Notes under the pieces: model-generated
Database searches by the model: none
What the model was told of the DNA's origin: nothing
What the model saw: the letters and a program-made list of their open reading frames with translations, nothing else
Source of the DNA: Planctomycetales bacterium
GTDB taxonomy: Bacteria > 4484-113
DNA: 55,413 nt
Direction of reading: 5' to 3'
Assembly (NCBI GenBank): GCA_030606285.1
Contig: JAUWGS010000014.1
Coordinates: 1 to 55,413, forward strand
Made by a program: the position numbers and the translations under genes
Shown: positions 48,683-55,413 of the stretch, piece after piece
Numbering within the stretch: position 1 is the stretch's first letter
Layout: every line of letters starts with the position of its first letter

Positions 48683-51600
48683 GTGGGCCCTGGGGAAGCA
48701 GTCGGAGTGCACAAAGAGCGTACTGCGTTCATCCTCTTCACTGACATTTACCGCTCCACGCAGCTCTGGGAGAAGTTCCCGCGCGACTTTAAGACCGTCC
48801 TTGAAAAGCACAACACGGCCGTTGAAGAGACCGTCCTGTCCCACGGCGGCGAGATAATGAAGAACCTGGGCGACGGGTACATCGCCATCTTCGGCAGTGC
48901 CGACACCTGTGTCGCCAGCGGCGTCAAGATACAGGGCAAGCTTGGTACCTTGCCGGAACTGCCCGACGGCTCGGACGTTCTGGTGCGAATCGTGTGCCAC
49001 GCCGGTCCGCTGTATCCACTCGCAACGGGCCGGGGATATTTCGGCAGGTCCCTCAACCGCTCCTCGCGCATGTGCCAGGTGTGCCATCCAGGGCAGATGC
49101 TGATATCCCAGGCCGTCAGGCTGTTCATTGATGAGCTTCCTGAAGGAGCTAGAGCGGTTGACCTGGGGTTCCACCGACTGCGAGATCTGGGGGAGTCCGA
49201 GCACCTGTATCATCTCGACCACCCCGAATTCAAGTTTCACGACTTCCCGCCCCTCCCCACGCTGGAGTACCGGCCAAACAACCTGGTCATCCAGCCAAAT
49301 GAGTTCATCGGCCGCGCACGCGAAGTCCTGGAGCTGAGGAAGCTTCTGGTCGAGGACAAGCGGCGGCTGATCACAATCACGGCGCCTGGAGGTTACGGGA
49401 AGAGCCGGTTGGCAACGCAGCTCTGCGCCAATCTGCTTGAACACTACGAGAACGGTGTCTTCGAAGTGCTGCTGTCGCCGATTCGGGAGCACACGAGGAT
49501 AGTCGCAGCCACCGCAAACGCCCTGGGGTTCCAGTTCTACGACCCGTCCGAGCCGGCACACCAGCTCACCGACTACCTGCGCGAGAAGCAGGTACTCCTC
49601 CTGTTCGACAACTTCGAGCATTTGACAGAGGGCAAGCAGCTCATCCCGGAGATACTGGAGAAGGCCCCCGATGTGAACGTGCTCGTCACCTCGCGGGAGC
49701 CCCTGCGCCTGCGGGCGGAGATGATATTCCGGCTTAACCCATTGCTGCTGGCGCGGCGCGACGAGGCTGCAATGGATGAACTCGCCGATGCGGTTGCGCT
49801 CTTTGTCGAGAGGGCATCGCTGGTAAAGCACGACTTCGCTGTCACCGAAGAGAACCTGAGTTTGGTGCAGAGGATTTGCGAAAAACTGGATGGCGTGCCC
49901 CTGGCAATCGAGCTGGCGGCGGCCTGGTCGGATTTCTTCTCGCTTCCTGAACTCCTTTCGCAGGTCGAGCGTCAGCTTGGGCTGACGGCAAGGACGGACG
50001 ATGTACCGGAGAAGCACCGGAGCATCCGCGCGAGCCTCGACTGGTCGTACAGCTTGCTGCAGGACAGCGAAAAGCGGGTCCTGCGCGCGGTGTCCGTATT
50101 CCAAAACGGCTTCTTCCTTGAAGTGGCTAGGGCTGTCGTGCAGCGGGAAGACCTGCTGCACGTGCTGGCCGAATTGTGCGACAAGAGCTGGCTCTTCTCC
50201 AGGGATATCGAAGGGCAAAGCAGGTTCTTTTTACGCGACGCTGCTGCGAGGGAATACGCGCTCGAGATCCTGAGGCGATCCGACGAATGGGAAGAGACAG
50301 TGATCGCTCATTCAAGGTGCTACGCCGGACTGCTGGAAAAGGAGGGAAGCGCACTAGACGGAAAAGGGCAGCTCGAAGCGATCAAGGCCATCGGCCTGGA
50401 ATTGGAGAACATCTGCGAAGCCCTGGACACAGCCGTGCGGAGGGATGACGCGGGCCTGCTGCTGCCCTTTGCGCGCTACCTGCACGAATACCTAATCATG
50501 GTCGGCGGCTTCCAGGAAGCGGTGGAGCATTACCGCCGGATACTGGATGCAGCTATTCACTTCGAAAGCAGCCTGGTGCTGCTTCACGCGCACCTCGGAC
50601 TCGGCGATGTTCTGCTGCACCTCGGACGGTACGACGAAGCGCGGAAGGAGTGCCTGGATGCGCTGGAGCTGGCTGAGTATCTCGATGACCCCCATGCTCT
50701 CGCCTCGGCGAAGAACGTGCTGGGCGATGTCGAACTCTTCAAGGGCAACTACGGCGCGTCCCGAAATTTCCACAACGAGAGTCTCGCCATCCAGCGAGCT
50801 GCGGACGATCGCAGCGGCGTTGCCTGTTCACTGCACGCGCTGGGTTTTGTGGAGTTCACCGAGGGCAATTACCCCGCCGCTAGGTCCCTTTACCAGGAGA
50901 GCATTGCCACCCGGCGGGAGATTGGCGACCGCCACGGCATGGCGCAGACCCTGAACCGGCTGGGTAACATGGAATACTACGCGGGTAACTACGATGCCGC
51001 GCGATCCTGCCACACGGAGAGCCTCGCCATTCAGCGGGAGTTAGGCGACCGTTACGGCATCGCCCAGAGCCTGAACAGCCTGGGCAATGTTGCGTTCTGC
51101 GAATGCGACTATGCCGCAACGCGCAGGTTATACGAAGAAAGCCTTACCATCAGGCAGGAGATTGGCGACCGTTTCGGCATCGCAGCTTCCCTCAATAACC
51201 TAGGGAACGTTGAATACTGTGAGGGCAACTACGACGCCGCGCGGTCCACCCACCTCAAGGGCCTAGCTATTAAGCGCGAGATTGGCGACCGTAACGGAGT
51301 ATCGTTTTCCCTCAACAACCTGGGGAACATTGCCGTCAGGCAGAGGGACTACGCCCAGGCAGGCGAATGGCTGAAAGAGGCACTGCAGATCGCCAAAGAG
51401 ATAAGCAGCATCATAGCGATTATCGCTCCGCTAGCAGTCAGCACCGGCCTCTTCGCTGCAACAGGCGATCTCAACGCGTGCGGAATCCTCGCGCACGGCG
51501 CGCTGCTTCAGGAGAAGAAACTGGGAACGCCCTTCGACCCAATGGATCAAAGCATGCTCGACGAGGGGATGGACAAGCTGAGGGAATCCTTCCCCGCAGA

Positions 51601-51694
51601 TGAGCTTAAAACGCTCAAGTCCCGCGCCGAGAAGATGAGCCTGGAAGATCTGGTGGACTTCGCGCTGGAAGCGTTGTCGGAAATGAAAGCCTAG
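48683..51694 (+). CDS. Class III nucleotidyl cyclase - STAND ATPase - TPR signalling protein
   Basis: 1003 aa. Residues ~12-180: class III adenylyl/guanylyl cyclase with metal Asp21 (LFTDIYRST) and Asp64 (NLGDGY), Lys60, and transition-state Asn125/Arg129 (LNRSSRM), so probably active. Residues ~200-500: STAND/NB-ARC-like ATPase with the FIGRAREVLELR entry, Walker A APGGYGKS (~234-241), Walker B LLLFDNFE and LVTSREPLRLR. Residues ~550-960: TPRs, including a run of 40-residue repeats (GNYxAARSxHxxSLAI-type) with exact 120-bp spacing from 50741. This architecture resembles bacterial AfsR/MalT-type regulators fused to a cyclase: the TPRs would sense a partner, the STAND switch would gate the cyclase. 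The signal is unknown. The start is a GTG 7 nt after a -10. tRNA-Ser begins 2 bp after its stop. Confidence 0.88.
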   Translation: MGPGEAVGVHKERTAFILFTDIYRSTQLWEKFPRDFKTVLEKHNTAVEETVLSHGGEIMKNLGDGYIAIFGSADTCVASGVKIQGKLGTLPELPDGSDVLVRIVCHAGPLYPLATGRGYFGRSLNRSSRMCQVCHPGQMLISQAVRLFIDELPEGARAVDLGFHRLRDLGESEHLYHLDHPEFKFHDFPPLPTLEYRPNNLVIQPNEFIGRAREVLELRKLLVEDKRRLITITAPGGYGKSRLATQLCANLLEHYENGVFEVLLSPIREHTRIVAATANALGFQFYDPSEPAHQLTDYLREKQVLLLFDNFEHLTEGKQLIPEILEKAPDVNVLVTSREPLRLRAEMIFRLNPLLLARRDEAAMDELADAVALFVERASLVKHDFAVTEENLSLVQRICEKLDGVPLAIELAAAWSDFFSLPELLSQVERQLGLTARTDDVPEKHRSIRASLDWSYSLLQDSEKRVLRAVSVFQNGFFLEVARAVVQREDLLHVLAELCDKSWLFSRDIEGQSRFFLRDAAAREYALEILRRSDEWEETVIAHSRCYAGLLEKEGSALDGKGQLEAIKAIGLELENICEALDTAVRRDDAGLLLPFARYLHEYLIMVGGFQEAVEHYRRILDAAIHFESSLVLLHAHLGLGDVLLHLGRYDEARKECLDALELAEYLDDPHALASAKNVLGDVELFKGNYGASRNFHNESLAIQRAADDRSGVACSLHALGFVEFTEGNYPAARSLYQESIATRREIGDRHGMAQTLNRLGNMEYYAGNYDAARSCHTESLAIQRELGDRYGIAQSLNSLGNVAFCECDYAATRRLYEESLTIRQEIGDRFGIAASLNNLGNVEYCEGNYDAARSTHLKGLAIKREIGDRNGVSFSLNNLGNIAVRQRDYAQAGEWLKEALQIAKEISSIIAIIAPLAVSTGLFAATGDLNACGILAHGALLQEKKLGTPFDPMDQSMLDEGMDKLRESFPADELKTLKSRAEKMSLEDLVDFALEALSEMKA
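50741..51340 (+). repeat. Five tandem 120-bp coding repeats (TPR units)
   Basis: Units begin at 50741, 50861, 50981, 51101 and 51221, with a sixth degenerate unit from 51341. Each encodes a ~40-residue TPR with the recurring GNY...AAR, ESLAIxREIGDRxG and SLNNLGNVEY core. The exact period and high DNA identity suggest recent duplication or gene conversion. Confidence 0.85.
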
Positions 51695-53426: not shown

Positions 53427-53534
53427 ATCAGCGGTCAGCCGTCAGTCCTCAGCGGTCAGCAAGACTCCGGAGGATGCTTCGCCTTTTGGTTTTGCCCTTG
53501 CTGGTGACTGAAAGCTGATAGCTGTAGACTGATT
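53427..53534. repeat. CAGC/TCAG-rich dispersed repeat, copy 1
   Basis: Begins GCGATCAGCGGTCAGC, a run of TCAGC/GTCAG units, then AAGACT...TTTGG, and ends GGTGACTGAAAGCTGATAGC. The two ends are partly complementary (CAGCxxTCAG against CTGAAAGCTG), so a long imperfect hairpin can form. A diverged second copy lies 320 bp to the right. Confidence 0.7.
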
Positions 53535-53745
53535 AGCCCGCCAGCTCGTCAACCCGCGCGTCCTCGTCGTATTCCGGCTTCGGCGACCCCAGCACGCGGT
53601 ACTGCTTGCCCACACTCCGCCGCCACGCGCAGCGAGGCTATGGAGTGCCTGCGGCCTGCTACCGCTCTGCCAACTGGATGTTTACCCGCCATAGCCCTGA
53701 GCTTGCGAAGGGCGACGGCGGGCTCTCCACCAGCCGCGCCCGCGC

Positions 53746-53855
53746 GATTCAGCCGTCAGCCGTCAGTCCTCAGCTTTCAGCAAGACTTAGAAGATTCTGC
53801 GGCTTTTAGTTTTTCTCTTGCCGGTGACTGATAGCTGATAGCTGGAAGCTGATCA
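53746..53855. repeat. CAGC/TCAG-rich dispersed repeat, copy 2
   Basis: Same organisation as the copy at 53427-53534: GCGATTCAGCCGTCAGCC, CAGCTTTCAGCAAGACT, a T-rich centre, then GGTGACTGATAGCTGATAGC. CAGCTTTCAG near the start is the complement of the CTGAAAGCTG block found in copy 1. Confidence 0.7.
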
Positions 53856-53963
53856 TCCGGTTTCCCCACGCTCGCCGCGACCTCGACCCGCCCCAGATGG
53901 GGCCGGTCCACCGAGAGCTGTAGTGTGGTTAGGAGCATTGCATCCTCACTCTTGGATTCCAGG

Positions 53964-54113
53964 CTACTTCGAACCGGTTGCCTTTGCGCTGCCCGATGGC
54001 ATGGTCACGCGCGTCACTCCCCCGCGCTTGTCGTAGGTGTAGTCGGTGTTGGAGGGCGTATGGTCGCGGATCCGCGTTACTACCCGCCCCATTGGCATCT
54101 TTCTTGTTGTCAT
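53964..54113 (-). pseudogene. Orphan YD-repeat (RHS-type) fragment
   Basis: A 49-codon frame whose ATG overlaps the stop of the lipoprotein gene (ATGA). Residues 11-43 read RIRDHTPSNTDYTYDKRGGV then TRVTMPSGSA, matching the YD-repeat pattern (YxYDxxGxVTxxTxPxG) of RHS proteins. It has no RHS core, so it looks like a displaced tail, as often found 3' of rhs toxin-immunity pairs. Translation is possible through coupling, but it is too short to be a working RHS protein. Confidence 0.55.
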
Positions 54114-54736
54114 GAAGCCTCCGGTTTCTTACGACCAACGGTACTGGAGATATAGACGACCCTTCCTTCTTGGAGGGTGAACGTCAATACGGCAGCCATG
54201 AAGCCCCTTGGAGCTTTGCAATCGTACGCAACGTGACTATAATATCCAGGTTCCTCAAATAGCCCCTCCTCAGCTGGTACGCCATACGCGGCCCTCACTT
54301 CTTGGTAAGTGCTACCAATGCGGATCCCCTGCCGCGTGACGAGTCCAGTTACCGCCTGTGCTGGCAGGTCCCATGGCACCAGCACGTGTCTATCTTCACC
54401 GAGCCATACTCCGCCTTCTGTACTGAGGGTTATCGACCATGGGGTCACTCTAACGTCCACGACGAAGCCCTCGGGTTGTTTCGTTAGAATGTAGGAATGG
54501 AACTCCCCGTCCTCCTTAGTATCAACGAGCCTACAATCCTCATCCGTCCTAAGCCCGTCTCCGCTGTCAAGAGCTATAAGGTCTACCCCGGTTCCGAAGT
54601 CTTCTAGCGGGATGATTGAAGGTGCAGTGTCCGATGAGTCCACATCATGTCTTTGAGCGTCGTGGTTACTCTCAGAGGCGATCGTGCAAGCGCAGACGAC
54701 GGGGATGCACAGCATCAGTGCCGCAATCAACCGCAT
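54110..54736 (-). CDS. Lipoprotein of unknown function, possible immunity protein
   Basis: 208 aa from ATG 54736; AAAGGAGG precedes it, which excludes longer frames overlapping the upstream gene. Signal MRLIAALMLCIPVVCAC with lipobox-like VCAC (lipidated Cys 15 or 17). The mature part has a beta-rich middle (VDVRVTPWSITLSTEGGVWL) and a final domain GIRIGSTYQEVRAAYGVP ... LTFTLQEGRVVYISST, a pattern like BamE/SmpA-type or similar small two-strand domains. No family assigned. It sits between a Cys-rich protein end and a YD-repeat stub, the position of an immunity gene in RHS loci. That role is inference. It is less GC-rich than the housekeeping genes. Confidence 0.7.
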   Translation of the reverse strand: MRLIAALMLCIPVVCACTIASESNHDAQRHDVDSSDTAPSIIPLEDFGTGVDLIALDSGDGLRTDEDCRLVDTKEDGEFHSYILTKQPEGFVVDVRVTPWSITLSTEGGVWLGEDRHVLVPWDLPAQAVTGLVTRQGIRIGSTYQEVRAAYGVPAEEGLFEEPGYYSHVAYDCKAPRGFMAAVLTFTLQEGRVVYISSTVGRKKPEAS

Positions 54737-54794
54737 GAGTCCTCCTTTCCTTAGCATATCACACCTCCAGTTCATTGGTGCACCCAGCCTCTCC

Positions 54795-55413
54795 TCAGGG
54801 CCTATCCGGCACATCTGGTGACAATGGTGGCCAATCGCACCAGATCCTCGGTGGCTGCATGTTCTCCTCGCCATGCATACGCCAGTTCCAGACGTCCGGG
54901 AGCGGTTCTCCGGGGGGCGGGCAGATATAGGGGTGCTTGAACTTGTGCTCCGGCGCGGGTTCTCCCTTGCAGTTCTTCATTATTGCTCCTGCGTTCTCGC
55001 CCCCCCTCATGGTTGCCATGAGCTTCACTTCAACCTCATACCAGCCAACCGCTTTTCCGGGCTGCACTGCGCCCGTCTCGCTGCACTTGCATCTTGATAC
55101 AAGTGGCACCCGCACGTACAAGTCGTAGTTTCTAAACTGCTCAAGTCCTGGTCCTTGCCCGTGGGCGGCGGGGTCATGACACCAACAACCATTTTGTGCT
55201 ACGCGTCTCCATCCGGACATACCCCTCTGGCAGCAGCAGTCTTCCTCTGGTTCCTCGGGTCCATCTGGTTTCTCGGGGGGTCTATTCATGCAATACGTAT
55301 ACCATTCAGGCGTCTTGATAATACAGCATCCAGTCGTAGGTGAGCAGGGGAAACACTCCGGACATGCTAAGGGTATGCAATCACAGCAGAGCACCCACGG
55401 GTCCGATATCTCC
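54795..55413 (-). CDS. C-terminal part of a cysteine-rich protein, possibly an RHS variable (toxin) tail
   Basis: The frame is open to the right edge of the window, so the N-terminus is missing; about 205 codons are seen. It begins EISDPWVLCCDCIPLACPEC and holds 19 cysteines in total, many as CC, CxC or CxxC (TGCC, DCCC, GCWC, RCKC), with Pro-rich spacers and GAVQPGKAVGWYEVEVKLMA near the middle. Such Cys clusters suggest metal binding or many disulfides. I do not recognise a domain. Because a YD-repeat fragment and a lipoprotein gene follow, it may be the polymorphic C-terminus of an RHS protein, but the RHS core would lie outside the window. Confidence 0.6.
   Translation of the reverse strand, partial: EISDPWVLCCDCIPLACPECFPCSPTTGCCIIKTPEWYTYCMNRPPEKPDGPEEPEEDCCCQRGMSGWRRVAQNGCWCHDPAAHGQGPGLEQFRNYDLYVRVPLVSRCKCSETGAVQPGKAVGWYEVEVKLMATMRGGENAGAIMKNCKGEPAPEHKFKHPYICPPPGEPLPDVWNWRMHGEENMQPPRIWCDWPPLSPDVPDRP

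Follow-up and report, generated by a model that had tools for sequence, protein, structure and literature searches.

Does the right-hand edge of this stretch of DNA carry a polymorphic toxin tail with its immunity gene, and if so, of what kind? The window, that is the whole stretch of 55,413 nt that was analysed, is a single contig (C34) of a genome of 36 contigs. A sequence-only reading had proposed that a Cys-rich protein end, a lipoprotein gene and an orphan YD-repeat fragment on its minus strand represent an RHS toxin tail, its immunity gene and a displaced tail. Our analysis indicates that the locus is quite probably a polymorphic cassette of tail and immunity gene from a family of YD-repeat (RHS-like) proteins, in which the tail would be the toxin and its partner the immunity protein. 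The coordinates of the features are collected in Table 1.

Table 1. Features at the right-hand edge of the window.
Feature	Position	Strand	Basis
Second piece of trigger-factor-like fragment, split off by a dispersed repeat	53539..53628	-	Repeat comparison in the genome
5' fragment of trigger-factor-like gene, marks 3' edge of the cassette	53855..53938	-	Repeated at six genome sites; intact tig on C8
49-codon YD-repeat stub, displaced remnant, probably non-functional as a gene	53964..54113	-	Same DNA behind two other immunity-like genes, no conserved start codon
Lipoprotein, candidate envelope-anchored immunity protein of tail 1	54110..54736	-	208 aa, MRLIAALMLCIPVVCAC
Shine-Dalgarno AAAGGAGG of the lipoprotein gene	54741..54748	-	Four bases between AAAGGAGG and ATG
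Tail 1, Cys-rich C-terminal tail of a YD-repeat protein, 5' part missing at the contig edge	54795..55412	-	205 codons, 19 Cys; start common with C4, then unrelated
Cys-rich linker common to tail 1 and tail 2	55233..55413	-	97% over 181 nt
Assembly branch point and common junction/linker	55273..55413	-	Sequence identity, 141 nt identical to start of C4

The Cys-rich protein end, here termed tail 1, was found as the sequence-only reading had described it. Its frame enters from the contig edge with the residues EISDPWV, and an open run of this length from the edge arose in 2 of 5000 shuffles of the region. Cysteine accounts for 9.3% of its residues, against a background of 1.5% and a 95th percentile of 5.1% in the neighbouring ORFs. 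The remark that the segment is unlike familiar toxin domains also stands, with zero matches in Pfam, NCBIfam, PHROGs, PADLOC and PDB. Scans of the genome and viral collections found no relatives of the Cys-rich tail and no convincing relative of tail 1 outside the window's own genome; three weak matches in other genomes (E 0.0009-0.008, two of the three with stops) were treated as chance. Structure prediction for tail 1 was poor (pLDDT 44.6).

Comparison of tail 1 with a second contig of the genome, C4, revealed a conserved flank beyond which the C-terminal tails are unrelated. The edge of C34 and the start of C4 are identical over the first 141 nt and diverge right after. The frame on C4 (tail 2) is likewise Cys-rich (183 aa, 19 Cys), and its score against tail 1 past the common linker was below the mean of 1000 shuffles. 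A kinship of the two tails based on their similar Cys pattern was considered and rejected, the shuffle test giving no support. HExxH is absent from both. Each tail has its own lipoprotein gene behind it, and the stop of tail 2 overlaps that of C4, which encodes a different lipoprotein. The frames of both tails and both lipoproteins are intact.

Candidates for the missing 5' part of the gene were seen on two further contigs, C13 and C23. Both end in a YD-repeat/post-YD reading frame homologous to the frame at the C34/C4 edge, and their ends likewise have exactly 141 nt in common. An identical overlap length at both branches is the usual trace of a de Bruijn assembler at a collapsed repeat, and 141 is the largest default word of MEGAHIT. 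Exactly 141 nt at both branches thus implies that one missing, collapsed repeat lies between a pair of 5' arms and a pair of 3' arms, and C13 and C23 look like the 5' arms of the two-copy locus whose 3' arms are C34 and C4. We infer that the arms join in this way, in either pairing; no contiguous sequence in the assembly connects the YD repeats with tail 1. A looser PF05593 search of the window's genome brought up the YD repeats of C13 (31 bits, cut-off 22), a direct search of the same genome at the default threshold having given no match. The post-YD region of C13 ends in ...RVKSPVIGRDMNPMGRGDG...GSSVNN, and C23 carries the same post-YD region without the YD repeats. Since contig C34 stops inside the repeat, a YD core beside tail 1 is not readable in the window. 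The expected YD/RHS core next to the Cys-rich part is therefore supported indirectly, by the 141 nt of C13/C23 and by the one-frame layout in relatives described below, and not in the window itself.

Both 5' arms start abruptly behind unrelated genes, about 60 codons or fewer before the YD/post-YD region, and an N-terminal delivery or secretion domain (PAAR, VgrG, signal peptide and the like) was not found in C13 or C23. Lacking a delivery part, the assembled copies are probably orphan tail/immunity cassettes; the assembly may lack a full-length main gene that includes such a part. A putative common promoter, TGGTATAAT, occurs at C13 and at other cassettes and was not counted as evidence.

The 3' side of the cassette is marked by two kinds of remnant. 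The YD stub, which overlaps the lipoprotein stop by ATGA, resembles a YD repeat weakly (PF05593 17.3 bits, cut-off 22; TIGR01643 15.4, cut-off 15.8). Its DNA recurs on C29 (81% identity) and C15 (95%), which rules out a chance occurrence. Neither site keeps the start codon, and the stub is therefore probably a DNA remnant rather than a functional gene. What had been called an orphan 49-codon YD fragment thus persists as a recurring piece of YD-like DNA, but not as a conserved gene. A different YD-region remnant follows the partner gene on C4 (76% over 55 nt), giving YD remnants behind the partner at C34, C4, C29 and C15. YD or displaced pre-junction pieces lie behind the partner at five relatives, and the proposed order of tail, partner and displaced YD piece thus recurs.

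The trigger-factor-like 5' fragment comes next, at C34, C4, C29, C15 and C8, and is also present at C11. Five of its six sites are behind immunity-like genes, and the C4 copy is a Trigger_N piece of 119 aa. Derivation of the fragment as a copy of the intact tig was rejected, the DNA match being no more than 33 nt. In C34 it is broken: a dispersed repeat, GCTGAGGACTGACGGCTGAC and its surroundings, interrupts it (window 53434-53453 and 53755-53774), and similar stretches are found on C4. Related membrane proteins, 65% identical, are encoded at C29 and C15 without any tail, and C8 carries a further one; these three are orphan immunity-like genes. C11 (L031 4898-5250) is a bare scar of junction-protein remnant, stop and trigger-factor fragment. 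The scar adjoins a frame resembling the start of an IS21-type transposase, by eye only. Directly downstream of the orphan immunity/YD cassette on C29 is a DUF433/DUF5615 pair, probably a toxin-antitoxin module (L009 7136-7770). Elsewhere in the window, positions 48683-51694 encode a 1003-aa protein with adenylate cyclase, NB-ARC/STAND-type ATPase and TPR domains.

These remnants raise the question of whether the whole locus is decayed debris, consisting of 5'-truncated cassettes and remnants without an expressed product. The abrupt starts of the C13 and C23 frames would fit such decay, as would the stub without a conserved start, the stop in the C11 scar and the broken trigger-factor piece. 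We nevertheless consider it unlikely, as both tails and both lipoprotein frames are intact, the ribosome-binding site is strong, and the genes overlap or lie close together. Moreover, orphan rhs fragments of Salmonella lack start and export signals, yet become active after recombination with the main gene (PMC3967940).

The generality of the arrangement was examined in 10 genomes of the class using a profile built from alignment A2. The junction motif IGRDxNPxGRG was present in 14 clear copies and one broken weak copy, distributed over 6 of the 10 genomes. Among named records, junction matches came from the same lineage only, and scans of the genome and viral collections found no viral relatives of the junction alignment. 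The family is apparently undescribed and confined to one little-known candidate phylum, very probably GTDB 4484-113, also named Candidatus Niteriota (PMC11382960). No match to Rhs_assc_core (TIGR03696) was obtained in the 10 class genomes or in the tested proteins. In the relatives, one uninterrupted frame runs from the post-YD region through IGRDxNPxGRG into variable Cys-rich tails with a Cys content of 6-11%. Between copies within one genome, identity over the 150 nt that precede the junction is 63-94% (complete over 141 nt in G000), and the tails differ. This pattern of conserved flank and different tail held within G003, G004 and G009, except for one G009 pair with a common linker. Most junction copies found sit at or beside contig ends; in one (G002:C121, L083 6889-7332) the junction module starts directly behind a tRNA-Arg gene and then meets the contig end.

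HExxH motifs (HEMYH, HEISH, HEYSH and HEFGHSCGLSH) were seen in 4 of 9 tails of the relatives, at G009:C18, G009:C100, G004:C111 and G003:C40. These tails had no Pfam match above cut-off, and those tested had no NCBIfam match. As YD-protein tails without a Pfam family, they are candidate new zinc-peptidase toxins (L060 3283-4632, L057 5879-7567, L080 7225-8790 and L086 2234-4696).

A small gene for a predicted envelope protein was located directly behind the tail in 11 of 11 loci. The partner is a lipoprotein at C34, C4, G003:C38, G003:C40 and probably G004:C111b, a membrane protein at G009:C100, G009:C18, G009:C70 and G003:C15, and a membrane-ankyrin protein at G009:C23 and G004:C111a. An N-terminal hydrophobic segment was predicted in 10 of the 11 partners versus 46 of 161 background ORFs (binomial 3e-5), a count that is indicative because the partner start codons were picked by eye. 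High tail Cys combined with envelope-anchored partners suggests action outside the cytoplasm. The partner lipoprotein behind the short tail of G003:C38 has the motif HEAYH (L059 6085-6636); this second gene may encode the peptidase, and immunity is thus not necessarily the role of every partner.

The lipoprotein gene behind tail 1 was found as the sequence-only reading had described it, with AAAGGAGG as its Shine-Dalgarno. Structure prediction of its product was poor (pLDDT 37.1), and a search of 144 genomes gave no full-length relatives. Its C-terminal domain resembles that of an unlinked lipoprotein on C20 (score 86 versus a shuffled mean of 31), a type that adjoins an LptF/LptG gene and is also present in G002. 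The lipoproteins of the cassettes have this domain in common with the unlinked one, and it is therefore not exclusive to tail/partner loci. This hints that the immunity proteins may be drawn from an envelope lipoprotein family.

The same shared domain has a bearing on whether the tails are instead variable surface or binding domains (adhesin, receptor- or cell-wall-binding) that the lipoprotein docks or folds. A domain in common with a housekeeping-like lipoprotein would suit such a role, and tail 1 and tail 2 are Cys-rich, largely strand-rich and free of a recognisable catalytic motif. We judge this improbable in view of the zinc-peptidase motifs in four sister tails and the two ankyrin partners, which resemble known immunity proteins; the kind of partner also varies by locus, in keeping with specific immunity rather than one chaperone. 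A chance position of an ordinary envelope lipoprotein gene behind an RHS tail is, despite the likeness to the C20 and G002 type, very improbable given the different lipoprotein gene overlapping the tail 2 stop, the envelope-type gene behind every tail and the search of 144 genomes that gave no full-length relatives.

The polymorphic tail/immunity cassette remains our preferred reading. The locus has common flanks, unrelated tails, a recurring gene order and the same layout in relatives. An RHS polymorphic toxin locus, as first proposed, agrees with the common start, the unrelated tails with their own partners and the recurring order, with the qualification that the modules look like 5'-truncated orphans. 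We infer the functional side, namely toxicity, immunity, disulfide bonding, periplasmic action, exchange by recombination and a delivery route, from this arrangement. Behind the common YD/post-YD region and Cys-rich linker would come a variable, disulfide-rich C-terminal domain, probably a toxin whose site of action is the envelope of an adjacent cell, and the lipoprotein from the next gene would probably protect the producer in the same compartment. Tails and partners would be exchanged between the common 5' junction and a constant 3' edge, at which the YD stub and trigger-factor fragment would be remnants of recombination. The orphan pair probably stays silent unless recombination links it to a complete gene or expression begins at its own short frame. 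More tentatively, and with somewhat less than even confidence, tail 1 and tail 2 may be new disulfide-rich toxin domains of the periplasm or envelope that their cognate lipoproteins neutralise, within a phylum-restricted YD-toxin family whose own junction replaces the Rhs core and whose cassettes move as units between the junction and the YD/trigger-factor remnant.

With their different junction, tails rich in cysteine and partners anchored in the envelope, these loci extend polymorphic toxin-type systems to a candidate phylum that has hardly been studied. Should the tails prove to be toxins, they would be candidates for new folds with a site of action outside the cytoplasm. Such genes are missed where repeated flanks break metagenome assemblies within the gene.

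Among known systems, the Tox-MPTase1-5 domains of RHS proteins (PMC3482391) are comparable to the HExxH C-terminal tails of the sister loci. The sister tails differ in being Cys-rich and in each having a membrane or lipoprotein partner, whereas no immunity family is listed for Tox-MPTase1-5 in that work, and tail 1 itself is without HExxH. Ankyrin proteins are a known immunity class, Imm-ank (PMC3482391), to which the two ankyrin partners directly behind the tail at G009:C23 and G004:C111a correspond; in these two a membrane segment at the N-terminus suggests an envelope location, and the lipoprotein partner in the window has no ankyrin repeats. From the Rhs-CT/RhsI modules and orphan pairs of Salmonella rhs (PMC3967940) the present loci differ in having the IGRDxNPxGRG junction and Cys-rich linker without Rhs_assc_core or DPxG(L), displaced pieces derived from the YD or pre-junction region, Cys-rich tails with mostly envelope-anchored partners, and a full-length main gene not found in the genomes examined here. 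The two nonetheless agree in their YD repeats and in a conserved region followed by unrelated tails, as well as in the small gene behind each tail, the displaced fragments, the orphan cassettes without an N-terminus and flanks fit for recombination.
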